From positions 36,681,000 through 36,744,999 of the forward strand of contig NC_054866.1 of NCBI RefSeq assembly GCF_018320785.1: a DNA stretch of 64,000 bases. The letters run 5' to 3'. The stretch is from Cheilinus undulatus (Eukaryota; Chordata; Actinopteri; Labriformes; Labridae). The notes under the pieces were generated by a model, which saw only the letters and a program-made list of their open reading frames with translations, did no database searches and was not told where the DNA came from. A program made the translations under genes and the position numbers. Below are positions 9,643 through 33,817 of the stretch, one piece after another; within the stretch, counting starts at the first letter, position 1; every line of letters starts with the position of its first letter.

Positions 9643-9671
9643 TCACTTAGCTGCTTGATTGTTAATCATGT
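9643..9671 (-). CDS. Terminal exon 17 of the FIIND-death-domain gene
   Basis: A strong polypyrimidine tract ending TTTTTCTAG precedes the exon. With the G carried over from exon 16 it reads DMINNQAAK then TGA, a plausible short tail after the last death-domain helix. Phase matches exon 16. It is only 29 nt, so the choice rests on the acceptor, the phase and the immediate stop. Confidence 0.65.
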
Positions 9672-12600
9672 CTAGAAAAAGAAAAAACAAAGTATCATAA
9701 TATTATTTGTCATATCATGATGCATGTGTTTTCATTAGAACAATGATAAATAATAATATACAGTATTTCTTCACAGAAGGCAAAATTAATTTGAAGAACT
9801 GATTTAGTTTTGATAATAAAGGATTACTCAAAATGACCTGATCATCGAGAAACATCTGGAAGCTTCCATCTCTCACTGGTGTAAGCTCTTAATCTTTTTA
9901 AGATCAAATGGCACCTTAAGGCAGCTCTGTATTGCTTCCCTTTCCTGCCACCTCCTAATCTGACCCCATGGCCATGTACCTGTTTCCCTGCTTCTCCATG
10001 GGTGTCTGGATCTTAATGCCCTGTTCTAACCTTATGAGGTATTGGTAAGATTGAAACTACAGCTCGATTCATGACAAAAAGTGATGAGCAAGTTTTGATG
10101 TATCAGTTTGTCCATTTTTGATGTTATCTTATCACACTATCTTTGTCTAATGTCAAAATTTGTTTGATGATCTGAAACAATTAAGTGTGACAAATACGCA
10201 AAAAAGACGAAATCAGGAAGTGGCTAAATACTTTTGACAGCACTGTACATATCAGCGGCATAAATCACATATCAGCCTTATTTACCATGAGGCAAACATG
10301 GCTGCGGGATGTGCTTGGTCATAGTTGCTGAGGCAATATTAAAGGGATATTCTGGTATTTTTGAAGTTGGGTTGTATAAGGTACTTGGTGATAGTAGAAG
10401 CATTAGCCTCCAGTGATTTCAGTGAGTGCTGCCCCTTCAAACAGAATCCACATAGAGAAGCTAAGCTGCTCCACGTAATATAGCAAGTTTACTATAAAAA
10501 TGGGCCAAAAAAATAATACTGGCTCAATCACACGCTATATTGGGCATTTTACTTTTCACCCAGAAAGCTGCTGGGTTGGGCACTATTTTGCAAGCGAGCT
10601 TTGGATAGTGGCTCACAGACACCTGCAGCTTGCATCACTCCCAACCCAGAGGTCCCTGCCTTACTGAATGCCCACCTTCTTCAACTCTCCAGAGAGAATT
10701 TGGAGAAACCTACCCTAACCTGAAGAGCTGAATGGAACAGGACAGGTCAGAACCTAAATGCAACACGCCTCTAGGTAAGAGCATTTTTAAAATGTGTAAA
10801 TGTATGTAACTGAAGGGCAGCGCTCCTAAGTGTGCACCCTTGGTCATGCTATGAAAAAGAGAAGGAGGGGAAAGGATGACGGTGAATTTAACTAGACAAC
10901 TGGAAAGGCAAGTAGAGAGGGAAAAGTTTGGTATATGTGTCTCTCTGCGCCTGTGCTATGTGCATTTGCATTTTGGGGCTGTTCATGTGTCAGTAAGATG
11001 ACTTCAGTCAGAGAAGGAGCCACACCGTCACAGTCACCCAAATAAGTTTATGGCTGTTACTTTATTCTTCTAATGGCTGACAACTAGACAAGCTACAGTC
11101 AGTCTGATATGTTCACCTTATGAAAACATCGTGTCAGCTGTTGAAGTGCAAAACTGACCTGAAATAACTAGTTTTGTGCTCAGTTTGGTGGTGTTTTCTC
11201 TGCTAAAGCCTACAGACAAAAACATACCTGTCCAGATACACTCAGCACAGAAGCCGGCAGCCAAAGCTCACATTGCAACATTTTGCCAAACACAGTGGCT
11301 TTCTCCTTCAAAATGCTCAATATAGAGTACAATTTTAGCTTAGCCCATTTTAGCTTAAACTCGCAGAATAATTTGAAGTAGCCTAGCATCTCTGGATGCA
11401 TTTATTTTAAAGGGGGCAACACTCTGTGAAATAACTGAAGGCTAATGGCACTGCTATCGCTAAGTGCTTTATAGAACCCAACTTCAAAAATACCAAAATA
11501 TCCCTTTAATGCTGTCTCCCATTAGCATGGCTGTTAATTTTCCATGGTCAACCCTGAATTCACTTATCAATCAGCTAACGGTTATATCTATATCCATACC
11601 AGTTATATGGTGCTTACATGGACATCCCTAATTTCTTACCTTGCAGAGTCTGATGGACCTCATTTGGCAGGTCATCCAGCTCCTCCACACTCTTCCACAG
11701 ATGAAACGCCGTTGCCTCACCTGGCCGCCTCCTGCTCTTCCATTCCACCAGCATCTTCAGCTTCTGCATGGTCACATCCTTCTCTGTTGACTGGATATCA
11801 TCCAGCTCCTTTGAGTTCAAGTCCAGATAGATGGCCACTTGCCTCCACTCCTTCCCAAGCCGCTTGGCCACCTGCAAAAGTTGCTTCTCCGACAAGTCTC
11901 GGCCCTGAGTTAACGCCGTTTTCATTCCGTCTGGAGACACAGCGGTAACAAATATCAGCACTGGAGAAAAAAAACAAAGTTGTGCCTGAAGCTGCTCTTA
12001 CAACAATAACAGGTACAAAAAATTAAGAAAGTCACCCGATTCATCCTGCCATCGAGGTCTTTTACAGCCTGTTTCTTCTTCCTCTGATGGACTGCTGCTC
12101 CCCCGCCGGCCTGTGAGAGACAGAGATCTTATTTAAGGATAACTGCAAATGCTGACAGAAACATGAGCCAAAAAAAATCAAGACAACAAGCTTACTGTTT
12201 GTCCTTTTTCTTGGCTTCTTCTCTTTGTCACCTACACAGTCACCTAGGAGTACAAAAATGACAGAAATCCCTTTACAATAGAACTAAATGACAGAAGTGA
12301 ACATTTAGAGCTTAATATGAAGACAATATAAATCACATTTTCTGACACTTTCAACATCCATACACATAATAATTAAATAACGGGTTGGCCACTCAATCAT
12401 ATTTGGCTTTAATTCTGCCAACACCAGCATATGATTTTCATTTGTAAATCACAAAATATTTCAGTGCAGACTAAATAGACCGTTACCTTCTCTGATGGTG
12501 GCGGACCAAACAACCTCATCAGTGTCAGTCTCTACGAGTGATAATTTAAAGGGAGGAGGCTGCTCAAAGAAAGCTTCAAAGTAGCCTTTCATCTTCGTCA

Positions 12601-15600
12601 CAGCGAGGGTGAATTTCAAATCCTGCAAAGAGATGCATGGGTAAAACTTAATGTGAAGTTAACACATTATATAACAAATTATTATGATGATGCAGTTTGA
12701 TATAATCACATGTACAGTACTGTGCAGAAGTTTTAGACATGTTTGGGCCAAAATTTGAGGCTAAAGTAAGGCATGCAATGGCGATTACGCCACCTGAGGG
12801 CCCCATAGGGCGGGAAGGAGGATTGACACAACCCAGGTCATGCTCTGGATGTCTTTGCACATTACCAAGGGCATGGGAAAATAATCTGATGAAAACAAAA
12901 CAAAAAACACAGCTTTAGGGCGGAGTTATGGATAGATGTGGCGTTTAAACATAACCTACGGTACTGTTAGGGCGGGCAGGAGGGCTGCCACAACCCCCTG
13001 GTTGTCGTGTGTATGTTCTAAACACCTGAAAACTGTTGGTGGTTGCTGGGCGCATTACCAGGGGTGCAACGGCTCGGACAACAGAAATGCTGTTAAGCTC
13101 AACCTTGGCTGCTGAGCGACACACGTACATGTCAAATGTGTTGACACTGACTCTGGCCACCCTCCCTCCTCTCTTCAGCCCGGGGTTGTGGAACATCAGG
13201 ACTTGTGAAGAACCGTAAGCGCTCTGCATGCCTAAAACTTCTGCACACTATTGTATATGAAAAAAAGACACACCTGAGGTTTGATCTCCCCCTCTGGCTC
13301 GCTCAGCAGACGGTACGTCCCCTCGTCCAGTTTACATGTTGGAGGCTTCTCTATCCGGATGTAACGGTTCTTGTAACCCTGCACTTGTTTGCGTATGTCC
13401 TGGTAAACATGAGCACAGGATCAGTTATAATTATTTGGAGGCTCCAGGCAGTGGAAAAATGTGCTCAAAGCAATCCTAATTAGTTAACCAAACATTCAAA
13501 TGCATCTCTTTCAGGTAACAAAGCCAGAGAAAATAGCAGACATATCCAATTCTGATAAATACAGTAAATACCTTGATACCTAACAGTGTTTCCTCACCAC
13601 TTCTTAGAGAAGCATCATAACTCAAACTCACTACAAAATGCACATATAGCATTAGTTCAGGCAAGCCTAGGAGTACTATTGAGATCAGCTGATCTCGCGC
13701 AAGCCCCTCATCAGGCGACAGCCAGCTGATTCGCACACGTTTGGCTAAACGCACTCAGGCTGCCTTTTTAAGTTGATTTATCCTGTTTTCTTTGCTGCTC
13801 TCGCTGCAAACTGCTTTTTGCACCCCTCCTCCACCCCAGCTCCTCTTTTATTCTGCTTCTGGCATAATTAATGCTGTTCTGTTATCATTGATGCTTACTC
13901 TGCTGTGGGTTTATTGCTGCTTCTCTCCCTGCCTCAGGCTTTCCTTGTATGCACAGGAAGAGCAGGATCATGTTCTGTTCCCATTCCTGCTTGCTCATGA
14001 AAACTGGGGATCTCAGAACAGACACACCGCCAAATATAAAATAATAGCAATAAGTGCAAACAAACAGCTGCTATTACGGACACAAAAAATTATAAGTGCA
14101 ATTGTGTGTTTCTTGACTAATTGATCTTGAATGAACTAAATATTTCAATGTCTCAAGTTGATGGGTAAATCAGAAAAAATATGTACAAACACTATTTGTT
14201 CAGTATCTGTTCTACTGTGTTTGTTGCATGAAATTTTAATCAACTACTTCATTGTTTAAATATGCCTATAGGGATCTACCTAACAATAATTGTTTGACAT
14301 GAAGACACAGGAGGCTTTTGACGGGCTTGAATACTGCTGTTGGGGAAGGGGGTCTAATTCAATGCTATTCTTTTCGCTCTTGATCTTTTATTTACATTTA
14401 AAATACATATCTATTAGATTTAAGTTCTGCCTTGACACAGTAGAATCGACCATACAGAGTGGAAAATGACATTGGCCTTATAGGATCAGTCATTCAGTGG
14501 TTCAAATCCCATCTTAAGGAAAAAACATTTTCTGTCTCACTTGGCAGTTTTTCATCTGTGAATTTCAGTTTAGACTGTGGGGTGCCATGAGGTTCCGCCC
14601 ACTTTTATTCCATCTTTATGTGCTTCCCCTTAATTTCATAATCCAAAAACACAATGTCTCATACCATTTATATGCTGATGATACTCAACTATACACCTCA
14701 CTTTCCTCTGATAATCTCAATCCTGTAAATCAACCAGTCAAAATTTACACTGCCTCAGTGCAGTATGACTTGTCACCAGCAGGTTCATTTCACAGACATA
14801 CCCACACTTCCTGAGTGACCTTAGCAGCGCTGTTAGGAAATGACTGAGTGTTACTGTCATGTATCTTTCGACATTAAATGGTGTCTTTTCTGTAATACCT
14901 ATCGAGATGGAATGTTGCCATTATGATAAAAAAACACTGTGTTTTCCTTTGCAATGAAAGCATTTGATGAAGATGGTCAATAATCACCCAAAATAGATGC
15001 TACTGGCAATGTAATGAGGTGTTTCATTGTATTTATGCAATACAAATACAGAGTATAACATAATCACAATAAATATCTGTTTGGTTTTTGTGTCTGTGTA
15101 TTACACCAACCTGGAAATCTTCTGTTTTTTTCTATCAAGCACCACAGCATGAAAGCCAGTGCAGGTTAAAAGACAAACAAGAAGTGAAATTTTTGGTCCT
15201 AATTCAGTTCTTTTTTTCATGCATGCAGATGGCCGACCTAATTTTCACAGGCATTTTGCTGGAGTTTCATCCAGCTGGTAAAACTTAAAATCACAGTAGA
15301 AAAGATTAAGTGTTCAGGTGATGGTCCCATGGATGGAATATTTCATTCAACTGTGTGCGTAAGGAAAGGGCTTTTTATCTTTATGTTTTTCTATTTTGCT
15401 AAAGGGAATGCATAAATCCTTTTATTAAAAAAAGAAAGGTACTTTAAGTGGAAAGTCACAAGGATTTTTTTCTTTCACACAGGCTCATCTATGCTGCGTT
15501 TTTTAAAGTATATAAAGGTAATTTAATGTTTTTCAGTGGGTCACGACTAGGTGTCTGAAAAAAAGGTGATTATTTTACCCTGTTTTACCATGAAATTGGG

Positions 15601-18600
15601 TAAATTTAAATGTTCGATCAATATTTCAACTAATCTATCTCCTCTTCTTGCAATAAATGGCTACTTTTCCCATGATAATTAAGTAATTTCACATGTTCTC
15701 TGGAAAATTGGCAAAAATGTACACATAATGATGGGGAAAGAGGGTACAAAATGTGTCATTTATGTCTCTTTTCGTTCTTTCTTTCTTCATTTTTTTAAAT
15801 CAGGTGTTTTGGTCAAATCATGCTCCAAACTGCAACATATTCAATTAACTAAACATGCATTGTTGAACATTTTTTTGAAACTTGGGTCACAACTCGCGAT
15901 CCGTCGTAAGACAGACTGGTGGGTCCTAAGGCCGGACCAGTTGAGAACCACTGCTGTAGAGTGATGGGTACTAAAATGTTGATTGAAGATGGAAGAAAGT
16001 TTAAAGAAAACTCAAAGTCCCTTTTTTGTCAAAGCTGGCCTAAATATTATTCAGGAATCTGTGACTACACAATGTGAAATGTATTTTTCAAGTCAATTCT
16101 GATGCTACAATCATTCAAATTAATTTTTCTCTCATTAATCTACACTTAGTACATCATAACAAAGCTCCTCTCCAGCTCAATCAGGTCGGATGGGGACCGT
16201 CAGTGGACAGCCATATATATGTCTTTCCAGAAATGTTCGATGGGGTTCAAGTCAGGGCTCTGGTTGGACCACTCCAGGACATTAACAGATTTGTCCCTAA
16301 GCCACTCCTGTGTTGTCTTAGCTGTGTGCTTAGGGTCATTGCCATGTTGGAAGGTGAATTTTCAGCCCAGTCTGAGGTCCTGAGTGCTGCAGAACAGGTT
16401 TTCATTGAGGCTATCCCTCTACTTTGCTCCATTCAGCTTTCAACCCTGACCAGTCTCCCAGTCCCTGCTGCTGAAAAACACCCAACAGCATGATGCTGCC
16501 ACCACCGTGCTTCAATGTTGGGATGGTACTGGGCAGGTGATTAGTGGTGCCATGGTTCCTCCAGACATAATATTTAGAATTGAGGCCTTGCAACAATCCT
16601 GTCTCTGAACTCTGTCAGGAAGGTGGGACTCTGTAGTCAGGGATTTCAGAGCACTGTGCCATAAAAGGTACCTAGTGCTGATAACTTATCATTAAGTGCC
16701 CCATTTTGAGGACATCTAAATATATTTTGTGTTTTAATGAACATTTTTTGCATTGTTTTACATTTTACTGTCTAATAAGACTAAAACCTTCATTCTAAAC
16801 TCTGTGAAGCGCTATGCATAAAGCTTTTGTCTGAATGGTGCTGTTTAGTAAGCCTGCCTTGCCTTGTCTTCTGGGATGGCTTCATCACAATGAGTACACT
16901 GTATTGACTGATGCTTACCTTAATGTCAGAGGCACTGTTGGTGGCCAGGTAGACATGGAAGCTGTAGTTGTTGTTGTCATTCCCCAGCTGCTTATAAACC
17001 AGGACCACCCCGTGGTGCTCCACAGACCGGGTCGTCTGAATGATGGGACCCACAGGTGACAGAGACGACACATTCCACTTCACATGACTACCTGAGTGGT
17101 CCACTGTGGGCTCTATGAGGGGGCGGTTGCCCTTCATATGCAGGACGCTGAATGTCATTTCATTTTCTTGATCTGTAAGGGGATGAAAGTTTTGTAAATG
17201 ATGCTTTATGGCTTTAAAGTTTATTATGCTCTCTAAAAACAGTGACTTATCAAATATAGATGTCCTGGAGTCTGTTCTTACCAGCGAGGCAGACAGAGTG
17301 AGGGAACTGGATGGACTTGAGGACAGATGCTTCTTTATTGACTGTGTCCACGTTGAAGATGGGCCCAGCAAATTTCCAGGAGTCCCTCAGGAATGCCCCA
17401 AACTTGGACCAGGACAAGATTGAGTACCGCAAGAGAACCCGCTCTGATGTTTCAAAAACCAAACCAGTGACTGAGCACTCATATGTACCCTCTCCTTCCA
17501 GCTGCACCCTGAAAAACAAAAACACTCAGAGTCAGTGATTGTGTACGAGCAGAAATATTACAAGTGTGAATAGAGAACGTTTGATCTGTTGTACTTACTG
17601 TAATCGTCCCTTACTGATCTTCCTGGGTGTAACAAGCTCATAGCCATGGCTCTGTCAATAAAAACAACATGTTTGTTTGGGGAATGACAAAATCAGAGCA
17701 GACAGAATTCAACAAAACCATATAAACTTTAAAAACCCATTGGGACATTTAGAATCTGCAAATTTAGTCAGATACCATCTGGTTTCTGAACTCACCTGCT
17801 GGATAGCTTTGCATTTTTCACAGCAATATTTCCGCCTCTCATCTGTCGAGATGCATGAGAAAATGTGGAGATTTTTAATTGGCACGCCACTCAATCTGCA
17901 GAACATTTATTGTGCTTGAATGTAAGACTTCTGCTCACCTTTCTCACTGGAAGTCTCTGCTTCAGGACCAGGGACTGACTCTGGAAGAAAAAATCAAGTT
18001 TAATACTGCAGAATAAAAACCACACAACAGATTTGTACCTTAAGTCTCTAGGGAGATTTTCTAATTGTTTAACAGTTTTCTGGGTTGTAGGGAGGATGGT
18101 ACATGTTCATTCGCACATCAAAGCAATTTTTCTAAAGCCTTCAAAGTCTAAATTATCACGCCTTTACCCCGTAATGCTACCACTAAGACCATGGCAACTA
18201 TGACAACAAGAAGACATGGTGGTCTCAGCAACCTCATCAGTTTATCCAACAAGGCAAGTATTGGTATTGGTCTCGGACCTTTTTTAGACTCCTCTGCCTC
18301 CTCATTTTCTGCAATAAACACAGAAGAGGAGGCCACTTCAGTAAAATCCTCGCATTATAAAGATTTTTAATGATGTAAAATGCTGATGCCAATAATTACC
18401 TTCCTCTCCTCCATCTTTCTCAGCAGATGATTCTGGTGAAAAATGTAAGAAAGAAGAGAAACATACATATTACTTCCCTGTTGAGTTTTATGAGGACAAT
18501 ACCACTTTGATGTGTGACAGTTATGAAAAAAATAACACAAGCTGGAAATCAACTCGGTTAAGGCCATATCAGTTGTGGGTCTATATGTCAGGGACCTCGT

Positions 18601-21600
18601 CAGCCACCATGGCTCTACACTGCTCTGGCAAACTGACAGCTATTGTCCAGACCCATGCCCTGTCCCTCAACGTATCTTCTCAGATGGCCCCAGGTATGCA
18701 AGAGTCCTCCTGAGAAGTCCTGAAGAAGAGAGGTTGTGTCCCAGGCACTGGCTTAATCTGACTGCCTCAGGATAAACCAAAACAGTTTAGAACCAGTTAA
18801 TGATGCCTCAGCACCACCAGCAATGTTCAGTAATGTTTGCCGACACGCAGGGATTTCCTCCTAGTCCACTGACAAAAGTCCCAGCAGCTTTGACCCACCC
18901 TCTTCATATCCTGGCTTTGGTAAATGCTAACAAAATCTGCATTATAACATATTAAAGCTTAATAGTTTTCTAGTCCTAAAGCTTTGAGTAATTACCTAGC
19001 AATAAGTCTCAATCTAGTGGTAACGACTAAATCAGTAGTTCTCAAACTTTTCCGCTTGCAACCCCTAAAATAATAGCGCCAGAAACAGAGGACCCACAAT
19101 GTACCTGAAGGTGACTGACGCATAGTTGAAAACAGCCATACACATTCAAGAAAAGTTGTGTGCAGACTCATATTTTAAGGATTTAACAGGACTTTTATTT
19201 CAGCATAGATCTCACCAAATTACAATGTTTCAATTTCACATTGAACTGATTTTATGCATATATTTAAAAAATGGCATAAATACGTTTAAACGTAACGTTT
19301 AACCATTTAAAAATACTTTTTTGTGTTTTGGAAGGCACCTGTCAACCCTCTCTCAGCGTCTCACGACCCCCTGGGGGGCCCAGACCCCAAGGTTGAGAAC
19401 CATTAGTCTCAACAAACATGTTTAATTTAAGAGCCTTAGAGGTGCAGGTGGCTGGATGTTTTCCTATTCCTAGATGGACAAAAGGCTCACTTTCACCCTA
19501 CTTTTTACAGTTTTTTTGCTAAATTAAGATACGAAATAGCTAGCTGGAGCTTCATACTGTTGCACTCGGATATGAGAGCAGGATGAATCCCCCCAAGATA
19601 TTAAATTGGAGAATTTTAGGAGTGGAAATTGCCCTTTTTATTCTGCTTATTTGGTATCCTATATGTAATAATGACTAATTTATTCAGAAAGTTTAATATG
19701 GATAACAATAAGGATAAAGTTAGAAAAATCATAGAATTCTGAGATGAGATATTTCAGATGGGTAAAAAATGCATTTTATTACTTAATATCATAATTGAAT
19801 GACATTATTACAAAACTGAAAACTTCACAATCATCTTGAATAAATAAAATAGAAATTAGTAAAATTTTAGTTTGACTGACAGAGTTGACAGTAATCAAAA
19901 TATGATGGGCAAAATAAGTACTATTTTGGAAAAAATGTTGACTTAAAAAATCTGTCCCTTTACACAATGCTATTTGAGACCTCAGCCTAAAAAAATAAAA
20001 TCAAGTTTGAAACCTGTTTTATTCCTCATCACAAAATTCAGTGATATTTATCTTGCATGTTCTTTCTTGCACAAATCCGATGGAAATATATGAACAAAAA
20101 CAAACTGATTGATGTGACTTGCAATGGATCATGTGAGGTCAAAATTCCCCTTTTTTAAGGATTTTCTGGGGGACTTATTTTCCAAAGTAAGACTCAAAAG
20201 AGCCACAAAAAAAAACTACGTATGGGGAGTACCAATGATATCATAACATCTGATTGACTGGAGAATACAATTTGCCACTAAAAAGGTCCGGTGCAGGAAT
20301 CATGTATTTATTTCCTGTAGTTTTGGTGTCAGTTTTGTCTTTTGTCAAGCTTCATTTCTTAACTTCTTTCACAACTGTTTGACATCCTGCTGTACCTCAT
20401 ATCCCTCTTCTTCTTCTTGTCTTGACATCAGTTCACATTATCTCCACTCATGTCATAGACACCACCAGCCTTTATAGGGATGGGTGTCGCAAATTAGCAT
20501 TTGCTATAAACACTATGATATCTTTATGGGATGGCTGGTCCCAGTGTGTCTATGTAGATTGTATCTACAAATAAACCATAAATAAATAAATAAGGAAACA
20601 TGAGGTGATGATGTGGTGAGTCAAAACAGGTTAATCTGTTTAAAATGCATTTTTTTAAATCAAAATATCCATATTTGGTATCAACAACTTGATAACTGTA
20701 TCACAGTCAGAAGTAGTCAGAATGATGATATAATCTTTGATTGATATTTTTCCCCACCCACAGAAAGTGTCATTAAATAAACAAACAGTTGAAAGAGTGC
20801 CTCTAACCAGATTCTTCATCATCCTCTTTATCCTCCTCTTCATCCTCAGAGCTGTCCTCAGTGGATGTGCCTGGGTTATCTGATAAATAAAAATGGAAGA
20901 GATGCATGAGGGAGCTAAAAACTTTGTACCGAATTTTCAATGAATGATGAGTAAAGAGATTCATTCCACAAAGACTAAAATTTATTCAGGAAAACAACTT
21001 AATGGAAATGAAAGGAGATTTCATGTCAACAGATGAGAAAGTTTCAGAGCAGTATGGGAAAAGAAAAGTGATTTAAACTTTTATGATATGATGTTTGTGC
21101 TTACCTGAACCACTGCTGTCACTTTCTGTCAGATTATCTGAAACACAACATAGTACGTTAAATAAATAATTTCATGTTAGAGCGGTTTAATTTCTTAAAA
21201 TGACTCATGGATGCCCTAATGTGAGAAATACTCTTGATTATTATGAGTCATTGTCATTTCGAAATTATTATTCAAATTTTTGTTAACTACATCATCCTTA
21301 TCCTTATGGGAATTCACCCTTTTTCAAGGTTTCATAGCAGCATCTCTGTGGTTGGCATTGTAACAGTGATAATACAGAAATGAAAGGCTTTTGTTAATTT
21401 TGCACTGACAGGAACAAACACAGCAGCAGACAGACACAAACAACAAGTTATCATTCATGAATTCCTGCTAACAACCAAAGAAGGAGAGCAAACAATCAAA
21501 GCTACCTTCACTGATCATTTTATTAGGTACATCTGTTCATTTGCTTGTTAATGCAAATCAGCCAATCACATTGCAGCAACCATTGCATTTAGGCATGTAG

Positions 21601-24600: not shown

Positions 24601-27600
24601 TCCCCCGTTCCTCTCTTTCTCTCTCCTTGTCCTCAAATGCCTCCCTTGGCCAATCTCTTACTCTGCTGCTGCCTCATCTGAGCCAGCAGGCATCCCTCTT
24701 CACTCCAGCTTGGCTGCTTCCCTTCATCAGCCTGACAAACAAGGTGGAGAGCAAACACCCACATAGATACCACATGCACACATGCAAACGCACACTTGTT
24801 CACAGCTTGGAAAGTTTAGTTAGTTTCATGGGTGCAGACTGCCATCTGCTGGTGTAAAAGGGAAACAGCAGCAGAAGTCATCAGAGAGGCTGATACGCAG
24901 TACACAGTAGTGAAAGTCTGACTGCAGATGCATCAATACCACTTTTCTGTAAGCACATTTGCACTCACTGATGCTGATAATAGTTTATTATGATCCTGGG
25001 TCATATTTGTGTTCTGGTCATGTTTATTGGGATATATGCTCTACCGCCCTGCAGTGTGAGGGTGTTTCTCTATGTATGTTTTAAGAGACATCACAATTCA
25101 GCAGCAGCTGATCATCAATTAGCAGTCAGTCAGCTTAAACAGCGGCGCTTTACTAATTCTAATAAAATACATTGCCAAATGACACCCCACAGTTCACTAG
25201 CCCTGTTACCCACCAAATAAGCCAGTCTATATGGGTACTGAAGAGTCACCACACTTCACAACACTCTGTACCAGAATATAAGGCAGATAACAGCTGGACG
25301 AGTGAACACGGGATCCCAAGGAGCTTCAGTATCCTCCAGAGGGCATCTTAAGGGGTCAAACCCCCTCCAGGAGTCAACACAGACTGCAAGCAACCCTCTA
25401 CTGAATTCCAAAAAGCGTTGAGTGAAGACCTGAAGCGCCAACATGTGGTCAAGCCTGACTGTTTAGGCCACTGGTGTAGAAGCAGCAGATAATGGATCTT
25501 TGAACATTGAAGTAGAGAGTCTGGTAGAGGTCTGGTTTATGTTTGGGCCTTCATTCAAAATGTTCAGGGCTCACTGTGAGTGTGTGGCGCCCTACGCACC
25601 TGATGGTACAGTTGTACGATTTTCCAATATTCACCAATATTCAAGGCAGATATAAGATTTATGTTTTATGAAAATGTCTGCCGATATACGGTCTGTGAAT
25701 ATCAGCAGAAATTTCCATAACTGCTAAACTGATGTATCACTTTTTTGGGCTATGATCTGCAGTTACCAATGTCCTGCCATCCCAAATGTTTAGTTTACAT
25801 GAGCTTACCATGCTGTTGTGCTACACACAAGGCAGTGAACACTGATAGCTGTGATGTAAATGATCTGCAACAGATCTGTGCTGTTGGCAGACTGTTTATA
25901 TGGCCACAGCATTAATAAGCACTGGGATGAGGTGCTGATGGTAGCTGAAATACTCTCCCTAAAATTCTGTGACCACTGAAATTTATATCAAAAATACTTT
26001 AAGAGTAGAAATAAGAAAACTGAAGGTTTTGTTCTGCGTCAAACAACATAAAAGTGCTGGCCTGACTTATAAATTTGATATTCATAGCGAACAGTTAGCT
26101 GTGAACTCAAATTGTGAAGTTTTAAGCAGAAACAGCAGAGCTTTCTCACCTTATTCCTTAAAAACTAAAGTGTGTTTTAAGGACCCAGGTTTTAAGTTTG
26201 AACTAAAGCTAGTTTAATTGATGTTTGGTACTTGGAAAGACTTTGTTTTTGTGTTATTTCAAGCACTGTGTAAGGATTGTCTCAAACACTATGCAACCCT
26301 GGTGTTTAATTAGGATAATTAATTTTAAATTGAAAGTTAAAGCTATTTTAAAAAGGAAACATTTTTCCTTGGTGCCCTACAGAGCTCATGTCTGTCAGCA
26401 GGTCATTATAGTGCAGTTTGTAGCTCTAAAGAAAGCAGACAATGCTTACTTCTACTGTTATAGTTTAAAAAAGCATGTTGCACTTAATGAACATTAGACC
26501 CAACTCAATAAATTGGTGTTTTTTAATTGCTGAAAGTCTATATTTGAAAAAAAAAAAAACACAACATCTAATCAAACATTGCTAGTTCTTCTATGCCAGT
26601 TTCTAAAATAAACAGTCACAGTGAGAGTAAGACTAACAAACAAACATTCATACTATGCATATTTTTTAAAAAAAAGAAAACATTTTTGCATGGTTTTAGT
26701 ATCAGCTTAGATGAGTTTGGAAATAAAGGCAGTATCAGAAACTACAACTGAAAAACTGTAGACACAAGTAAAAGGATGACAATGCAAAACTCTTGCTGCT
26801 AACTCAGGCAAATAATATGGAAATCCCAAAGGGCAAACCATAAGAGGAGAGAAAGGTCAGAAGGGATAAAGAGGTGAAGGAAACCAAAACAGTGAGAAAT
26901 AATACATGAGGATGCACTAGTGTTTAATATTAAAAGGAGGAAGAGGAGAGATGGAGTACAATCACTGCATGAACAAACAACACAAACACATGTAGCCCCT
27001 CGTGAAAGTGAAAGGAGAAAGAGTTCAACAGTATGAGGGTGGAAAAAAGGGTTGATGTTTACCTTTGTTACCAGGTGCTGGGATATCTCCGTCTCTGTGG
27101 GGCAGAGGAGATAAGAGTCAGACAACTCTGAATTACACTGAAAACACAAGGAGTCACGTGAGGGTAGTCTGGGATGTGTGATGACAAGAAGAAAGAATTT
27201 AGAGGTTGAAGTGTTGGAGTGTAACATTGTGCAGCTGCAGGCTGTTGTACTGAAACCACTTCTGCTTTTAGATACAAACACACAGTTAAACGAATTAGAA
27301 AAACAGGAAACGTGCACCTCACTCACTCTTTTGACACCTCCCACCCAGCGATAGATGCATCTTCACACACAGAGTGACCCACTTTCACAGCACTGTTAAT
27401 AGTGCAGGAAATGACGCATGGAAAGAAACTGACAGGGCAGTTGAGCCCTTAAATGATCCTGTGTTTGTTCTGCATTCTGTTTCAGAGACATCAGTGCAGC
27501 TGACTGATTCACATTCATTCAATTGTTAATTTACTTTCATTGGCATCATTATGTGATGATATGATCAGATAGTGTTATCATTTTACAAAGTTTTGGTGTT

Positions 27601-30600
27601 TGAAATATATCAAACTGGGGTTATTTCAGTGTCAGGTTTTAAGCCTTTGATACAATTCCAGTAATGTTTCTATACCATGGCAACACAAATACAAGTCTGA
27701 GAAACTCAATACTGGTCAAATGAAATCTGCCTATATCAGCTATAAATATTGTCCTTACTAACAAAAAAGTCAACAGAGTTTTAAGATGGAACAACCAGCC
27801 TACAGAACACAAGCAGAAATCTCTTTTCCTTTTTCTAATCATTCCTTATACTTTAAGTGTGTTTTAAGACTGAAATGTGCTCACTTATTCATCCTCAAAC
27901 TTCAAATCACATGTTTTAAATACTGAATTTTAAGTCCGACTCATTTAAATATCAGTATTGACTGGGATATCAGCAAAAATCCAATATTGTGCATCCCTAT
28001 TAAAATAAAGCAAGTATCAATCCTTCTAATGGCCTTATTTGTAACTAACAGAGTGAATAAGCAAACATTGTTTGAACTGATGAAAGCTTTAAGTGCATTT
28101 CCAACAAGAAGTCTGGTTTGGGTCATTGGATGACCATATCTGTGGTTCCACAGTATACTGCACCATTATTTGGTAGGTGGGGATGTGAGCTAGCTGGTAG
28201 TAGCCATGTCAGCTGTGTGACACTGTGGCATTATAGCAGGTCTGCACCTCTGAGGTTGTTTGAGGGGTAGTGCTACATGTTAATATTATTTGCAAAAACC
28301 AAAAACAGCCTTGAATTACTCTCTGGAAATCCATGGCATATTCAAACACGGTGCCTTTGTGTTTTTCCAATATCAAGGCATAGGAATGCAACATGGGAAT
28401 TTGCTTCTTTAAGCAATCACCTGACTGCAGTGTGCCTAGCTCCTCTCTTTAGGGTTGGACAGGCATGCTTGTTACTGTAATAGGCTGGGTGCCAAAAAGT
28501 AGGAAGGTACATATTATGTAAGTTAAATTGATACTTATCATTAATTTTGGCAGTGGAAGAACAAATAATTGCATATTATACCAAACCAGAATGAGTTTGC
28601 AGTGATTTTGAATTTGCTGTAATCCCATGTAGATATTTCTTGAAATGTCACTTTTTAATTGAGTGACATAAAGGCTGTACAATCAAATTCACATTTTCAT
28701 AGTTATTGCAATATAACTTTTTAAAAAATATGTAAAGTGTGGTGAATTAATTTATACAAACAAGCAGCAATGTACTAAATATAGCAGGGGTGTCCAAACT
28801 TTTTCCACTGAGGGCCACATACAGAAATATACAAGGATGGTCAGGCCACCTTTATACTCCATGCCTTGAGGATATTGAAGTTATCAAGACTAATCAAATG
28901 CAAGTTTATAGATGCTAAGTGATATTGACCTAATTGGTTAGGTACTGGCTTACAAGGCAAATAGTTATTTTTAGGATACTGGGGAGCCATTCAGATTTCA
29001 GGGGGCATCATTTGGCCCTGGCTACCACTGGCTCTACCCCTGAAATGTTATTGGTCTTGCTATTTGCTGCGATAACACATCAGGACGTTATTAATCAAGA
29101 TATCTTCTTATCAAAATGTTTGTTTACAGAATTAACGTGGTAGCACTGCCTTGTGTTGAAACCAAGACAATACAGTAGAGAACAAGCTTTATGTTCTTAT
29201 GTGGGCGCCATATTTCATTTTATTTCAGGAATTTTTTTTGCAGGCCAATAAAAAATGGGCTGCGAGTTGCATTTGGCCCCCCTTGAATAGAGCCTTGGTT
29301 CTTAGCTGACATAAAAGTGGGGCACAAAGCCATGTTCAGTTGGCTGCAGATGTATGCCTGCCCAAAAAAAGAGAAAAAAAAAATGGCCAAAAAGTCTATG
29401 ATATGCTTTTATTTTGTAGGACGTCTCCACCTCTTTGTTTTGTCACATTGTTTGTTTTACCTCAACTCCAAACTGCCCCATTTTTTTCTGTAAATATTCA
29501 GATATTATTGGGAAAAAAAATTTAGTCGGGATATGTTGTGGGTCCTGATGCTTGATCAGCTGAGAACTAGTGGAAAAGAGAAAGGGAATACAGTCATTGA
29601 CAGAAGTATTGGCACCCCTGGAAATTTTCCAGAAAATATACCAATGCACATAAATGAAATAAACATGTGTATACCAAAAACATTTGTAATTGCAACCATT
29701 TCTGGGGGATATAGTGTATTTTCTGTAAAAATTTCAGGGGTGCCAATACTTCTGTCCATGACTGTATATCGGCTCTCACACTTGGAGTTAGATGTAGCTT
29801 TAGGTATCTGTCAGGTACCCTCAAAACAACTGGCAGTAAGGAGGTCATTATAATGCCAAAATCTAAGATTTCAATATGATAGAAACTATTTCAATACTTG
29901 TCTAGATACCATGGCAACAATAACTGAGTTCTAACACCCAAAATATTGTGCAATTTCTTGTTTTATGATGATAAAAAGCAGGCTATCTCCTGCACATGGG
30001 CTAAGATGCACAAAAACATTGCTTCAGGGCTAAAATTATGCCATCCTATTTGTGCAGTATGGATAGTGTGCAGGAGAATGCTGTCGATTTGTGATGAATT
30101 CATTCCTCATATGTACCTGTCATATAAAACAGAGGTTATTTTTTGGCATTTTTAGTACTTATCGAAACTGCCAATCATTTAATTTTGTATTGTTTTTAAA
30201 AACCCAAGGTATCAAAACATGAACAAGAGCAAGAAGGCTAGCTAACATGCCCTGCAATCCCTGCAGGCCCAATTTTAGTCATATCAAACTGCACAGAAGA
30301 TATCACATGCAGCTCTTCCTCAAATTAATTTAATGAGTTTAATTGTAGAAAAGTTGAGTTTGTCATCTAAACAATGAGTCAGGTGTTACTTTAGTTTGCA
30401 TGCGTGTCTGTATAGGAGACCGGAGCAACCTGTTGACGCTTTCTAAGCCTGGACAAGAGACAACACGCCTGAGTTGCCTACATCTGGGGGAGACTAGAAG
30501 AACGAGTTCACCACCAGCATGTGTGAAAAAGTAGGTCACATCCCGCCCTGTGTCTTTTCCAAAAAGTTCAGAACCGGCGATCAAAAGCAGAATAATGAAT

Positions 30601-33600
30601 CAGGAAATTAGGTTTATTAAGCTGGACCACAATGTGGGCTTCTATTTGGCGTCTGTAAATCCTGATAAGGCACTTTGGTTTCCTTTGTTTTCAAACATCT
30701 GTCCAGGAAATGTGCTTTCTTCTCTTCAAGGTCATCAAGTTGGCAGCCCTGTCACACCACACCAACCCTGAGGCTCGTATGTTGCCATAGTAATCATGTA
30801 CTACCTTTAATAAATAAACTTGCTGCACTGGTTCTCAGGCTTTTTCTGCCCAGAAAATATGATAACACGATCCTCAGTGAGGGTGTTGGTCTGTTTCTGG
30901 CTAGAAGATAATGGTGCAACATTAACATGTCAAACACAACTTCCCAATGAAGAGAGGACATCTGTGTGTAGATAAACAACTGTCAGTTTGCATGTTACAA
31001 ACAGAAGCATGAAAACAGATGACCTTTGGTTCTTCCAGTTATTAATATGACACCTCAATGCTTTCACTACGGTGTTTACAGGGGGTCATAAACAGAACAA
31101 AGGGAATATTGTCCTTCTACTGATAATAAATTGTAAATTCTCTTTTAAATTAAACCACTTCTATGTAGCGTGTTGTTTATAAAAGCCAGGGTAGTGCTGT
31201 TTATTCAGGGACTTTTCCAGCCCTAATGGCCGTGTGGATGATACCTGGACAAAGGCAACTGGTACACAAAGGACAGTGAGTCATCCGGATCATGTCACCT
31301 GTCTGTGGTTTACAACGCAACTGATAACAGAGCATATATGACTTACAATATAATTGGTTTGAATCAAATAAAGATTACTATTTGTTTCAATGAGAAAATA
31401 AATACTTTATATCAAATTTCCATTTGGTGAATACATGCAGGTCACATGTATCAAAGTAACAACTTTTGAAAGGTTGGTTATAGGGCAGGCTTGTTTGTAG
31501 GCCACTGAAGGATAATTTACATATGTAGGATGATTTACATTGTTATTGTTCTGTTTTCTTAACTCAGTCAAGTCAGTAAGTCACTATTATGAGAGAAAAA
31601 AACTTAACAGTTAAAACTCATTTATATGACTCACTGTCTTTTAATTTTGAAATAAATCAATTATAAAAATATTGACTTTTTATCTCATATATTTGCCATT
31701 TTTGTCAGAAATTCTGCTTTTTATCTCATGATTTTTAATCTTTATCTTATAATTTCCACTTTGTCTCATAACCTTAACTTTTATGTCATGATTACCTGTT
31801 TCTCTATCATGATCTGAATATTTGTCTCTTGATTTTGACTTTTTTTCTCATAATTTTTAATTTTTATCAGAATTTCCTCATTGAATGCTACATATTTCGC
31901 ACTTTGTAAAACTATTTTTAATTTTTTTCTCGTGAAATTCATATTTAATGTTATTTAACATTTCTTTCCTAATAATTTGGAATTTTTAGGTAATAACTTC
32001 CATCTAATGTCTTTTCTTTTTGAGTTTTGTCATAAATTTCACTTTTTTCCTGCATTATAATGTTTTATTATCCCAAGTATTTGATATTTTTGTCACATTT
32101 ACCAATTTTCATCATGTAATATGGAATTTTTTATCTTATAAGTTAATGTTTCATGTTTTTTTCCCTTTTTGTCTTTCTAATAATTTTTTGATCATATTTC
32201 TCACTTTTGTCTTATATTTTGGACTTCATTGCTGTTATCTTAATCTTTATTCTCATAATTATAGAGTTTTCACCTCATGGATATAATATTCTGAATTTTT
32301 TTTTTCATTCTCCATCTCATGATTTTTAATTTTATTTCATAACTTCCACTTTCTCTAGAAATCATGACTTTTATGTCATCATTTCCTGATGCTGAATCAT
32401 GATTTTCAAAACTGTCCCTTTATTTTAACTGTATTTCTCATAATTTTGACTTTTCATGTCATAATTTCCACTTTTTGTGTCATAATTCAGGCTTTCAATG
32501 CCATATATTTCCTTATCTGTGTCATAGTTTGTAATTGTATGCCATGATTTTGTTTATCTTTTTTTAGGATATTTTTGGGCTTTTTATCCCTTTAATGAGA
32601 GAGGAGGAAAGTGGACAGAGTCAGAAACAGGGATGAGAGAGTGGGGGAGAGACATGCGGGAAAGGAGCCACAGGCCTGAATTAAAGCAGGCTGCCTGGAT
32701 ACATGGAGCGGGACCTCACAGCAAGGCTATCCACACCACAGCAATTCATTATTTTATATATTTTTGCCTTGTTTTCTCATAACTTGGATTTTTCATTTCT
32801 CCTTTTAGTCTTATACTTTTGCCTTTTTTTCTCATTTTTGTTGTGAATCTAATATTCTACGTTACACTTTCCATCTTATAATTTCGCATTGCTATCTTAT
32901 AAATTTGATATTCAATGTCATAATATCAACATTTATATCATAGTTATGACTTTTTAACTGATTATTATGTCTTACTCCCATACCTTTGACTCTTTATCTC
33001 ATTATTTCGATTTTCTTTTCGAAAACATCTGATCTTTTATAAGAGGTCCCACTTTTATCTCATGATTTTGTTTATCTGCTGATTCAAAATATTTTATCCC
33101 ACATCTTATTTTTTGACTTTTTATTTCGTCATTATCAGTCAACATCTAACAGTTTCAACTTTTCATTTAATAACTGACTTCTGAACTCATTATTCTGTTT
33201 TCTATCTAATAAATTGTCTTTAATATCACAAATTCAACTTCTCAACCCATCATTATGAAGTACTCCTATAAACTCATAATTTTAGCTTTTTATTCTACTA
33301 TGGTGTATCCTTTCATATGTCCTATTTCCCTTTTATACAGGAGAAAATGGGCTTCCATTAGTTTAACCTACATTTCCATCCGTCGTCTTCAAACATGCTG
33401 CTTGTTTTGTGTTTGTATGGTCCCAATTAGTGTTCTGCTACTCTGCTGTCAGTGAGTCATCTTAGTGTAACAACACAGCAGCGTGCTCACACAAAGGCAT
33501 CTCCACATCCTTGTTATTTTACTTTATGTTCACTCTAAATCAAAAGTATCATCAGTTAGGGGTCTTTACATGCGTTATTTCAACTATAAAACTGCAGGAA

Positions 33601-33817
33601 AACGAGCGGACAGAAACAAAAGACTACTTCCTGTCTTGCCTCGAGGGGCCGATTTAAGCGCCTCATCCCACAGACATCATGCTGTCCGATCCGTAGCACA
33701 AACCCTGATGTAAATCCAGAGATCGGCATTCGTCTCATAAGAAAATACTTAGATTAAATAAACTTACCCGTCCTCCAGGTGACAAGCCGCCCCACAGCTC
33801 GCCATCTCCGCCACCAT
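9643..33817 (-). CDS. Membrane-anchored FIIND (ZU5-UPA) death-domain protein, 17 exons
   Basis: Exons in transcript order: 33817-33768, 27094-27072, 21137-21105, 20879-20808, 18432-18400, 18308-18168, 17980-17939, 17842-17796, 17651-17599, 17508-17282, 17172-16919, 13399-13274, 12622-12487, 12243-12196, 12110-12036, 11960-11640, 9671-9643. All are GT-AG and join in one frame: 1,710 nt, 569 residues. Layout: acidic low-complexity region (about 25-80, with [12 protein letters not shown]); one transmembrane helix (about 102-116); short Cys cluster (YCCEKC, about 137-142); FIIND ZU5 part (166-325); UPA part (326-412); basic linker (413-453); death domain (about 463-560). The FIIND resembles NLRP1 and CARD8. 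A putative autoproteolytic set (H252, E261, S279) has the spacing I recall for NLRP1, but the residue before the serine is Leu, not Phe. No NACHT, LRR, PYD or CARD. Likely a signalling protein; function is inferred. The start codon has A at -3 and G at +4. Confidence 0.83.
10120..10246 (+). mobile_element. Tc1-like 3' end fragment
   Basis: The segment ends GGCTAAATACTTTTGACAGC then ACTGTA, a Tc1-type terminal repeat with its TA. Only the right end is recognisable; no transposase text is left. Confidence 0.5.
10343..11505. mobile_element. TTAA-flanked non-autonomous DNA element
   Basis: Exact TTAA sits at both ends (10,339-10,342 and 11,506-11,509). The left terminal repeat AGGGATATTCTGGTATTTTT is matched by the complement of the right end, with about 35 bp of inverted similarity. 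A TTAA target is typical of piggyBac-type transposition. It lies in the last intron of the FIIND-death-domain gene. There is no transposase ORF. Confidence 0.75.
11640..11960 (-). CDS. Exon 16: death domain
   Basis: This 321-nt exon encodes residues 454-560. The domain begins near [20 protein letters not shown] and runs through [12 protein letters not shown], a Glu/Asp-rich helix 3, [17 protein letters not shown] and a final Leu-rich helix. The invariant-type Trp residues (KEW and VEW) and the GEAT turn are characteristic of death domains in ankyrin, UNC5 and PIDD. It is not a CARD, which is what NLRP1 and CARD8 carry here. A GTAAGAAA donor follows. Confidence 0.85.
12036..12243 (-). CDS. Exons 14 and 15: basic linker between UPA and death domain
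   Basis: Exon 14 (12,196-12,243, 48 nt) encodes [11 protein letters not shown] and exon 15 (12,036-12,110, 75 nt) encodes a Ser/Glu patch followed by CKRPRW. Both are symmetric phase-1 exons, so either can be skipped in frame. The KKPRKR and KRPR clusters look like nuclear-localisation signals. Exon 14 has a second in-frame acceptor 12 nt downstream (GTGTAG), which would drop four residues. Confidence 0.7.
12487..12622 (-). CDS. Exon 13: C-terminal half of the UPA domain
   Basis: Encodes residues 368-412, beginning [20 protein letters not shown] and ending [10 protein letters not shown]. The pattern of a beta-strand, a Pro-rich turn (QPPPFKLSL) and a final VW strand matches the end of the UPA region in NLRP1-type FIIND domains. 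Flanks are a TTTGCAG acceptor and a GTAACG donor. Confidence 0.8.
12715..13260. repeat. Unclassified interspersed repeat, copy A
   Basis: The block shares long stretches with 21,990-22,395, including CTGGATGTC-TTGCA-ATTACCA and GACACACGT followed by Pro/Gly-rich text. It also contains an internal partial duplication: two GGGCGGG-AGGA-G starts, each followed by an ATTACCA-GGG motif. It lies in intron 12 of the FIIND-death-domain gene. The class is unknown. Confidence 0.65.
13274..13399 (-). CDS. Exon 12: start of the UPA domain
   Basis: A phase 0-0 exon of 42 codons encoding [20 protein letters not shown] and ending in [13 protein letters not shown]. The RI-KPP motif and the following GxYRL strand correspond to the UPA start in NLRP1-family FIIND domains. 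This exon first suggested the FIIND assignment on the C-terminal side. Confidence 0.85.
14400..14740 (+). pseudogene. LINE reverse transcriptase fragment (L2-like)
   Basis: Broken frames read [20 protein letters not shown], then a Gly-Val-Pro with the expected Gln codon now TGA, then LHLYVLPL-type text and [14 protein letters not shown] at about 14,655-14,700. YADD is the catalytic motif of reverse transcriptase, and the WF-SYL and GVPQGS context is that of L2/CR1-type LINEs. At least one stop and one frameshift are present. It lies in intron 11 of the FIIND-death-domain gene. Confidence 0.8.
15535..15953. mobile_element. hAT-type remnant
   Basis: The right end reads CCAGTTGAGAACCACTG, the complement of the common hAT terminus CAGTGGTTCTCAACTGG. 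The left end (CAGTGGGTCACGAC at about 15,535) is degraded. The interior is AT-rich and non-coding. Confidence 0.5.
16140..16640 (-). pseudogene. Tc1-like transposase fragment, minus strand
   Basis: The minus strand encodes [20 protein letters not shown] at about 16,480-16,535, a hallmark of Tc1 transposases, followed by flanking transposase text in broken frames. It belongs to a subfamily different from the copy at 6,988-8,258. It lies in intron 11 of the FIIND-death-domain gene. Confidence 0.75.
16919..17172 (-). CDS. Exon 11: ZU5 C-terminal half with putative autoproteolysis site
   Basis: Encodes residues 241-325 (254 nt, phase 1 to 0). It begins [20 protein letters not shown] and carries [14 protein letters not shown] and [10 protein letters not shown] further on. 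The block aligns by eye with the NLRP1 FIIND segment around its cleavage site. His252 lies 27 residues before Ser279 and Glu261 nine after His252, the spacing I recall for NLRP1 H1186, E1195 and S1213. The P1 residue is Leu278 rather than the usual Phe. Confidence 0.85.
17282..17508 (-). CDS. Exon 10: ZU5 N-terminal half of FIIND
   Basis: Encodes residues 166-240, including [20 protein letters not shown], then SW-KF and the AGPIFNVDT strand, and ending near the [11 protein letters not shown] motif. The YxCSVTGL start, AGP-(I/L) strand and (L/F)PH motif are the conserved landmarks of FIIND/ZU5 in NLRP1 and CARD8. This is the strongest single exon for the family call. Confidence 0.9.
17599..17980 (-). 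CDS. Exons 7-9: linker with Cys cluster between membrane helix and FIIND
   Basis: Exon 7 (17,939-17,980) encodes an acidic linker, exon 8 (17,796-17,842) [16 protein letters not shown] and exon 9 (17,599-17,651) [17 protein letters not shown]. Splice signals are good: TTCTTCCAG, a CTCGACAG acceptor and GTGAGT/GTAAGT donors. The C-C-x-x-C cluster could bind metal or be palmitoylated, but it is too short to assign. Phase shifts from 1 to 0 to 2 across these exons and still matches exon 10. Confidence 0.72.
18168..18308 (-). CDS. Exon 6: transmembrane helix exon
   Basis: A symmetric phase 1-1 exon of 141 nt encoding residues 71-117. It starts with acidic [10 protein letters not shown], then a basic amphipathic stretch ([12 protein letters not shown]) and a hydrophobic helix [15 protein letters not shown] closed by Arg. 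No N-terminal signal peptide precedes it. The basic residues on the N-terminal side favour a cytosolic N-terminus under the positive-inside rule, but an Arg also follows the helix, so topology is uncertain. Skipping the exon keeps the frame and would give a soluble form. Confidence 0.78.
18400..21137 (-). CDS. Exons 3-5: acidic N-terminal cassette exons
   Basis: Exon 3 (21,105-21,137, 33 nt), exon 4 (20,808-20,879, 72 nt) and exon 5 (18,400-18,432, 33 nt) are all phase 1-1. They encode [11 protein letters not shown], a DN-plus-acidic run ([15 protein letters not shown]) and [11 protein letters not shown]. Exons 3 and 4 both start Asp-Asn, which hints at exon duplication. Acceptors are TTTCAG, TTATCAG and CACCAG; donors are GTAAGC, GTTAGA and GTAATT. 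Low complexity makes these less certain than the domain exons. Confidence 0.65.
19033..19405. mobile_element. hAT-type MITE
   Basis: It starts CAGTAGTTCTCAAACTTTT and ends GGTTGAGAACCATTAG, near-complementary termini of the common fish hAT family with CAGTGGTTCTCAA ends. There is no ORF. It lies in intron 4 of the FIIND-death-domain gene. Confidence 0.7.
21990..22395. repeat. Unclassified interspersed repeat, copy B
   Basis: Shares ordered blocks with 12,715-13,260. It lies inside the foreign insert that splits the Tc1-like element. Confidence 0.65.
22478..23109. mobile_element. hAT-like MITE with LINE tail inside
   Basis: The termini are CAGGGTCTGACATTAATGG and the complement of CTTAACGTCGGACCCTG. 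A shared CTATG flanks both sides; the usual 8-bp hAT duplication is not intact. The element contains the LINE tail at 22,628-22,896. Confidence 0.65.
22628..22896 (+). mobile_element. LINE 3' tail (RTE-like)
   Basis: Starts with AAGCACTCGGAGAGCACAGA and ends ACCTCCTTGGCGGAGGTAAT after a stretch of AACAAACTAACAAAC repeats. This recurring 3' end is typical of RTE-type LINEs in fish; the clade is from memory and unverified. Confidence 0.55.
23955..27060. other. Intron 2 of the FIIND-death-domain gene, no further feature
   Basis: I recognise no exon, RNA gene or clear transposon here. A moderately GC-rich patch at about 24,290-24,760 stands out from its AT-rich surroundings without an interpretable frame. 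Confidence 0.5.
27072..27094 (-). CDS. Exon 2 of the FIIND-death-domain gene (23-nt microexon)
   Basis: It reads through GACGGAGATATCCCAGCACC between a CTGCCCCACAG acceptor and a GTAACA donor. Exon 1 ends in phase 2 and exon 3 needs phase 1. Joining exon 1 directly to exon 3 would create an immediate TAA, whereas this 23-nt exon restores the frame. That requirement is the main support. Confidence 0.55.
27100..28780. other. Intron 1 stretch, nothing recognised
   Basis: AT-rich intronic sequence without an interpretable exon or repeat end. Confidence 0.5.
28785..29282. mobile_element. hAT-Charlie-like remnant
   Basis: The start CAGGGGTGTCCAAACTTTTT followed by GAGGGCCACAT is the well-known hAT-Charlie type terminus. 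The far end (GCATTTGGCCCCCCTTG) is the degraded counterpart. It is non-coding. Confidence 0.7.
29291..29572. mobile_element. hAT-type MITE
   Basis: Starts near CCTTGGTTCTTAGCTGAC and ends GGGTCCTGATGCTTGATCAG then CTGAGAACTAGTGG, the same end type as the element at 55,272-57,047. It directly abuts the preceding Charlie-like remnant. Confidence 0.6.
29591..29764. mobile_element. Short palindromic Tc1-type MITE (174 bp)
   Basis: The ends CAGTCATTGACAGAAGTATT and the complement of ACTTCTGTCCATGACTG match over roughly 50 bp with few differences, and TA flanks both sides. The element is almost two inverted arms. It is intronic in the FIIND-death-domain gene. Confidence 0.85.
29770..31630. other. 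Intron 1 stretch, nothing recognised
   Basis: Unremarkable AT-rich intronic DNA of the FIIND-death-domain gene. Confidence 0.5.
31640..33300. repeat. Degenerate short-period array (CTTTTTATCTCATAATTT type)
   Basis: For about 1.65 kb the sequence cycles irregularly through variants of CTTTTTATCTCATAATTTC with a period near 20 bp. It is broken by a SINE at 32,566-32,752. Strong strand asymmetry (T-rich top strand) is visible throughout. It lies in intron 1 of the FIIND-death-domain gene. Confidence 0.7.
32566..32752 (-). mobile_element. SINE, minus strand
   Basis: The minus strand contains GGCTCCTTTCCCGCATGTCT, then CTCTCCCCCACTCTCTC and AAGGGATAAAAAGCCC, the same order as the SINE at 46,950-47,105. 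It is inserted in the degenerate short-period array. Confidence 0.7.
33768..33817 (-). CDS. Exon 1 (start) of the FIIND-death-domain gene
   Basis: Begins ATGGTGGCGGAGATGGCGAG and encodes [17 protein letters not shown] before a GTAAGT donor. A second in-frame ATG lies four codons in. The first ATG has the better context (A at -3, G at +4). The exon is GC-rich compared with surrounding intron. Confidence 0.68.

Follow-up and report, generated by a model that had tools for sequence, protein, structure and literature searches.

Which kind of protein joins a FIIND to a death domain (DD)? The question is raised by a gene on the minus strand of a 64-kb window of the Cheilinus undulatus genome (NC_054866.1, positions 36,681,000 to 36,744,999; the window is this whole stretch of 64,000 nucleotides). 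The best-known carriers of the FIIND are NLRP1 and CARD8, whose CARDs feed into caspase-1, while a preliminary description of the window had proposed a membrane-anchored receptor or sensor of fish. Judged from its sequence, the locus is a real gene. It belongs to the FIIND class, where it has been overlooked, and has a death domain as its output; the sequence finding was sound apart from a putative transmembrane helix. The product is most likely a soluble intracellular protein and not a membrane receptor, and is best read as a switch that cleaves itself in the manner of CARD8 and has a PIDD-like output.

Domain content and kinship

Pfam profiles applied to the full protein of 525 amino acids matched FIIND (PF13553; 1.2e-34, 119.2 bits against a cut-off of 25.8), UPA-FIIND (PF23679; 8.4e-25, 88 bits against a cut-off of 27) and Death (1.1e-6); an earlier, partial version of the protein gave near-equal results. 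Recovery of FIIND and Death by profile search had been set beforehand as a check, and all of these matches were above the curated cut-offs. The same scan of the full protein returned no C-terminal CARD, the death domain standing in its place, no NACHT and no LRR; LRR and Peptidase_S68 were without a match up to E = 1. The proposal of a FIIND protein that lacks the NACHT-LRR part and has a death domain as its effector was thereby borne out, as were its acidic region (36 D/E and 6 K/R in residues 1–97) and Cys cluster (CCEKC). The order of parts is an acidic N-terminus, Cys patch, FIIND (ZU5), UPA, basic linker and death domain. Among named proteins, the whole-protein profile matched rat NLRP1 (3.3e-18) and CARD8 (5.2e-10).

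The FIIND-UPA region was 43–52% identical to that of 13 tetrapod FIIND-DD proteins, and 21–26% identical to NLRP1 (human, rat), CARD8 and three FIIND-CARD genes of the same genome; similarly, the dog and chicken FIIND-DD proteins were only 23–29% identical to CARD8 and NLRP1 in this region. In a FIIND-UPA tree of 30 rows, one branch set a lineage of 24 rows apart (support 92/94, present in 90% of 200 bootstrap trees, which is below the starred level). That lineage comprised 19 FIIND-DD rows and five cod or cyprinodontiform relatives that also contain CARD, caspase or NLR parts; because the latter nest among the fish, the 19 rows taken alone require three changes. In two cod (Gadus) NLR proteins, P0150 and P0152, the FIIND was of the FIIND-DD type and shared 53% identity with the window protein, a pattern as if the FIIND module had been transferred onto NLRs. 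Across the C. undulatus genome, 40 FIIND matches resolved into 21 loci, with one or more close pairs merged. Sixteen of these were followed by a CARD match no more than 20 kb downstream, four had neither domain, and one, the window gene, had a Death match; matches were scored exon by exon, such that these counts are lower bounds and the four blank loci may reflect missed exons.

The closest counterparts by layout differ from the window protein in distinct ways. CARD8 shares an N-terminal tail, FIIND-UPA, a death-fold domain and the His/Glu/Ser of autocleavage, but has a CARD and Phe at P1 where the window protein has a death domain and Leu, and is only 22% identical in FIIND-UPA. NLRP1 shares FIIND-UPA, the cleavage residues and a Ser-Pro new N-terminus, but the window protein has neither NACHT nor LRR and ends in a death domain rather than a CARD (25–26% identity). 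PIDD1 has the same ZU5-UPA-DD order and its death domain is among the closest, but its LRR and Peptidase_S68 parts are missing here. A PIDD-like death-domain exon with a Peptidase_S68 match was found elsewhere in the genome, at C9:21.86 Mb, which upholds the view that the window gene is distinct from PIDD. UNC5 and UNC5CL also share the ZU5-UPA-DD order, and UNC5CL has, we assume, a transmembrane segment before it; no such segment was supported before the ZU5 here, and the Pfam match was to FIIND, not to ZU5. An earlier case of a FIIND joined to an adaptor domain, with predicted autoproteolysis, is that of the TRADD-N proteins (eLife 2021, PMC8195603); these are set apart by TRADD-N in place of a C-terminal death domain.

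Distribution and naming

A protein search with exons 10–17, using an early query that lacked exon 14 and had ten surplus residues before the death domain, returned 413 proteins, the best 120 of which included alignments over the full query (100%) at up to 83% identity, the highest being to the labrid Xyrichtys. These teleost proteins, of the si:dkeyp-97b10.3 type, are the same protein with the same layout. A search with a pike protein, in which an artificial query length restricted matches to longer proteins, gave 35 matches, nine of them tetrapod (a caecilian, a turtle and seven carnivores). The nine were 43–45% identical over 95–99% of the pike query, and precomputed Pfam annotation gave FIIND and UPA in 9/9 and Death in 7/9.

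A badger protein was then used as query (8000 candidates scored; best 120 of 302 matches listed, with clusters at 90% identity showing one or a few names). The placentals among those listed were Carnivora, ungulates, whales, bats, a pangolin, a hedgehog, moles, a shrew, a sloth and an armadillo; the non-placentals were marsupials, an echidna, an alligator, turtles, lizards and birds, and the listing went as far as birds and lizards with 55–66% identity. Together, the pike and badger searches overturned a fish-only family, and with it the designation of the gene as a fish FIIND-DD. These tetrapod proteins (from carnivores, ungulates, bats, marsupials, birds and reptiles) resemble the window protein in FIIND, UPA, basic linker and death domain, but their N-termini differ and are sometimes longer. 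No primate, rodent or lagomorph was named among the 120 listed matches, which is not a search of genomes, and no afrotherian was named among them either; four listed rows bore no species name (three 'lgn' and one 'eukprot'). The names in the listed rows suggest that the family was lost in the primate/rodent/lagomorph lineage.

The protein is already in public databases. Many teleost entries are named si:dkeyp-97b10.3, 'uncharacterized' or 'FIIND domain-containing', while many tetrapod members bear the names CARD8, NLRP1a/b allele, NLRP1-like or 'uncharacterized LOC...', and so are often labelled as CARD proteins. A literature search on the locus name si:dkeyp-97b10.3 found no paper, and within a partial coverage of the literature no published FIIND–death-domain protein was found by title or by the start of the abstract. 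In PMC10249858, orthologs of CARD8 and NLRP1 are defined by more than 50% identity, a rule that would have passed over the FIIND-DD family. The 'Dog_ded' sequence of D'Osualdo 2011 was considered as the same protein, but probably is not; it is reported there as 47% identical to human CARD8, compared with 23% for the dog FIIND-DD protein (FIIND-UPA).

Predicted self-cleavage site

According to PMC3210808, self-cleavage of CARD8 depends on Ser297, His270, Glu279, His252 and Phe296. Ser245, His218 and Glu227 of the window protein aligned with Ser297, His270 and Glu279 at equal spacing (0, -27, -18). The predicted site, Leu244/Ser245 (17057..17062, minus strand), aligned with the F/S of human CARD8 and NLRP1, and cleavage there would expose Ser-Pro as the new N-terminus, as in NLRP1. 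Leaving aside the cod and cyprinodontiform relatives, the residues His -27, Glu -18 and Ser were retained in 120/120 teleost entries by the wider pattern and in 118 by a stricter one. Among 121 tetrapod entries, 114 had the exact His/Glu/Ser, five had the His one residue further out and two lacked the motif; hence the cleavage residues were kept in 119/121, counting the five with a shifted His. The P1 residue was Leu in the window protein and in 238/239 entries with the motif, the remaining entry, a tetrapod, having Phe.

Death domain, linker and N-terminus

When a 16-row profile of teleost death domains was compared with solved structures, the best matches were PIDD (2.1e-9), THOC1 (5.7e-9), RAIDD (1.9e-8) and RIPK1 (9.7e-8), followed by FADD (4e-4). 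A second profile, made up of five fish and four tetrapod rows (9 in all), gave THOC1 (1.7e-10), PIDD (1.2e-9), RIPK1 (7.3e-8), RAIDD (1.7e-7), ankyrin-3 (8e-7) and FADD (1.4e-6). PIDD was among the best matches of the death domain, with THOC1, RIPK1 and RAIDD close in score. The suggestion that the protein feeds a FADD-, PIDD- or RIP-type pathway is plausible: PIDD, THOC1, RIPK1 and RAIDD were favoured, and FADD was weaker. On C23 of the same genome, CARD and death-domain exons of RAIDD are separated by about 10 kb; with these and the PIDD exon at C9, candidate partners exist in this genome.

Two cyprinodontiform relatives, P0130 (Girardinichthys) and P0136 (Xiphophorus), have the order CARD–caspase–FIIND–UPA–DD, and both genera also have ordinary FIIND-DD proteins (P0085, P0099). 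Cod models combine FIIND, death domain and CARD, and in one of those scanned a caspase too. If the gene models hold, these joins would link the FIIND-UPA-DD module to CARD-caspases. It was also observed that self-cleavage of P0130 and P0136 would separate the caspase from the death domain, and that P0129 (Gadus macrocephalus) contains four death-domain and two CARD stretches with FIIND-UPA and a caspase, being either real or a merged gene model.

The linker between UPA and the death domain has basic clusters on either side of a Ser/Glu stretch (KKPRKRTNS...KRPR). Exon 14 (12196..12243) encodes KKPRKRTN, and exon 15 (12036..12110) the Ser/Glu stretch and KRPR, which is the second half of this nuclear localization signal (NLS)-like linker; we take its arrangement to resemble a bipartite nuclear signal. 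Where the limits of the linker could be set, a basic cluster was present in 100/102 entries from teleosts and 71/74 from tetrapods, compared with 8% (teleost) and 18% (tetrapod) of same-length stretches elsewhere in the proteins. At the other end, the acidic tail was less conserved than the FIIND (mean major-residue frequency of 0.72 versus 0.91).

Proposed mechanism and alternatives

We cautiously favour the view that the window protein belongs to a vertebrate FIIND-DD family of soluble, intracellular, self-cleaving switches that are triggered by degradation and have a PIDD/RAIDD/RIPK1-like death-domain output. The ZU5 half would cut itself at Leu244/Ser245, and the resulting 27-kDa N-terminal piece (acidic tail and ZU5) would stay non-covalently bound to a 32-kDa piece consisting of UPA, linker and death domain. 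Were the N-terminal piece to be cleaved, ubiquitinated or otherwise degraded, the UPA-DD piece would be freed; it could then oligomerise through its UPA and recruit a death-domain partner, the prime candidates being RAIDD (leading to a CARD caspase) and RIPK1. With its conserved basic linker, the UPA-DD piece may enter the nucleus.

Several observations weigh against this proposal. With Leu at P1, rather than Phe, the mammalian SF/S motif is absent; PMC3210808 reports that UNC5b has Leu at the P1 place and that CARD8 F296H is severely defective in cleavage. Two FIIND loci of the same genome (L005, L006) have HLS at the P1 place. Self-cleavage at Leu244/Ser245 is likely but, since the P1 Leu is that of UNC5b, not assured. 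A protease tripwire would be expected to change fast, whereas the start of the acidic tail is well conserved among fish. THOC1, PIDD, RIPK1 and RAIDD were not separated by score, their order varying between the two profiles, and errors in the gene models could account for the CARD-caspase joins. Finally, shuffled linkers retained a basic cluster in 61% (teleost) and 42% (tetrapod) of cases, so that composition accounts for much of the basic-cluster signal.

The P1 Leu, shared with UNC5b, also fits a scaffold that does not cleave, that is, a closed ZU5-UPA-DD supramodule like that of UNC5b, which is opened without proteolysis and then signals through its death domain. This is a rather unlikely account, given that His, Glu and Ser were kept in 239/241 entries, which is unexpected if cleavage had been abandoned. 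Somewhat less probable again is a nuclear regulator, in place of a platform for death or inflammation, whose acidic head, NLS-like linker and THOC1-like death domain would serve transcription or mRNA export while the FIIND acts as a degradation-controlled switch. THOC1 ranked first in the fish-plus-tetrapod profile and the basic linker is conserved; however, PIDD ranked first in the teleost profile, the CARD-caspase joins in relatives point elsewhere, and the shuffled-linker control applies here also.

The putative transmembrane helix

A membrane anchor depends on the extent of exon 6. The proteins of most related fish imply that the exon occupies 18279..18308, and the helix is encoded only if it runs 111 nt into the intron (18168..18278), to a donor after 18168. 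By a simple splice score this donor reached 0.6, compared with -0.2 for the relatives' choice after 18279; both are weak, and splice scores alone do not settle the end of the exon. The extra peptide would contain a 19-residue window with a hydropathy of 2.58. However, a hydropathy above 1.6 was found in only 1/81 delimitable teleost N-termini (among the 120 entries) and in 2/106 measurable tetrapod N-termini (among the 121), both of the latter at other places. The single teleost exception was a partial Nibea model, in which another hydrophobic stretch (1.92) replaces the exon 6–8 region. A transmembrane anchor was therefore rejected as a feature of the family. A repeat or transposon origin of the helix stretch was without support, its sole match in the genome being itself.

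There remains an anchored FIIND-DD receptor as an isoform of C. undulatus, which the open frame from exon 6 to the better-scoring donor would allow; besides the Nibea model, a few fish models (P0034, P0047) are also extended at the exon 6/7 junction. These extensions differ in sequence and lack a strong helix, and none of the three N-termini above the threshold has the same stretch. Such an isoform is very improbable, and we take the helix stretch to be intron. The label 'membrane-anchored', which hung on a long exon 6 that relatives do not share, is thus unsupported, and 'receptor' falls with it.

Gene model

The reading frame runs on the minus strand from the ATG at 33817 to the end of the TGA at 9643, and its 17 exons, when the in-frame join was rechecked, gave 525 codons and a stop without a frame break, as first described. 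Each of the 16 introns is GT..AG, although exon 4 (0.3) and exon 6 have weak donors; the boundaries of exons 1, 4, 6 and 16 were set from splice phase and other fish proteins. Exon 1 (33768..33817) contains the start codon, which several other teleosts use too. The acidic N-terminus continues through exons 2 (27063..27094), 3 (21105..21137), 4 (20808..20879, an acidic stretch), 5 (18400..18432), 6 and 7 (17939..17980). Exon 8 (17796..17842) holds the Cys patch (C105, C108), followed by exon 9 (17599..17651). Exon 10 (17282..17508) encodes the first part of the FIIND (ZU5), and exon 11 (16919..17172) the end of the ZU5, with His218, Glu227 and Leu244/Ser245-Pro246, and the start of the UPA. The UPA extends over exon 12 (13274..13399) and ends in exon 13 (12487..12622); after the linker exons, exon 16 (11640..11930) encodes the death domain, and exon 17 (9643..9671) the C-terminus and stop.

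Twelve of the 120 proteins listed for the exon 10–17 query were 'lgn' entries from other species, 67–81% identical, whose longest contig measured 2.0–3.0 kb; one of these, P0069, is only 392 amino acids long. We take them to be assemblies of public reads. Because the coding exons span 24 kb in C. undulatus, contigs of this size presumably represent spliced transcripts from other fish. That the model mis-joins a FIIND gene and an unrelated neighbouring death-domain exon, exon 16 being some 5 kb from the FIIND exons, can practically be dismissed, since most of the listed fish and tetrapod proteins combine FIIND, UPA and Death, entries on the 2–3 kb contigs included.

Genomic neighbourhood

Elsewhere in the window there was a weak match to IL12 alpha, below the cut-off (6357-6593, plus strand), a DUF4719 gene that is presumably C3orf80 (57380-58165, plus strand) and an IFT80-type TPR exon (63722-63967, minus strand). 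Human IL12A, C3orf80 and IFT80 are neighbours on 3q25, and the gap between them would be the place of any lost human copy. Repeats comprised a minisatellite at 1830-2180 (69-bp unit, 5.1 copies, 97% match) and an array of 41-42-bp units in about five copies at 45631-45833. A DDE transposase-like fragment at 39681-39935 (plus strand), presumably Tc1-like, was also a weak match below the cut-off.

Significance

A wider evolutionary reading is possible, if doubtful: the protein may descend from an ancestral bony-vertebrate FIIND protein that combined CARD8-type functional degradation with a PIDDosome-like death-domain platform, the freed piece possibly being nuclear, and that persisted in fish, reptiles, birds and many mammals while disappearing from the primate/rodent lineage. 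On this reading, that loss is the reason why work on human and mouse has missed the family. Since many tetrapod 'CARD8' and 'NLRP1' labels are misleading, statements on presence or absence that were based on names may need checking. If it is true that primates and rodents lack FIIND-DD, studies of human and mouse cannot reveal its role. A FIIND-DD family with members in fish as well as in dogs, cattle, bats and chickens would extend the self-cleaving, degradation-triggered switch to another output, and could complete the wiring of cell death in livestock, poultry and bats.

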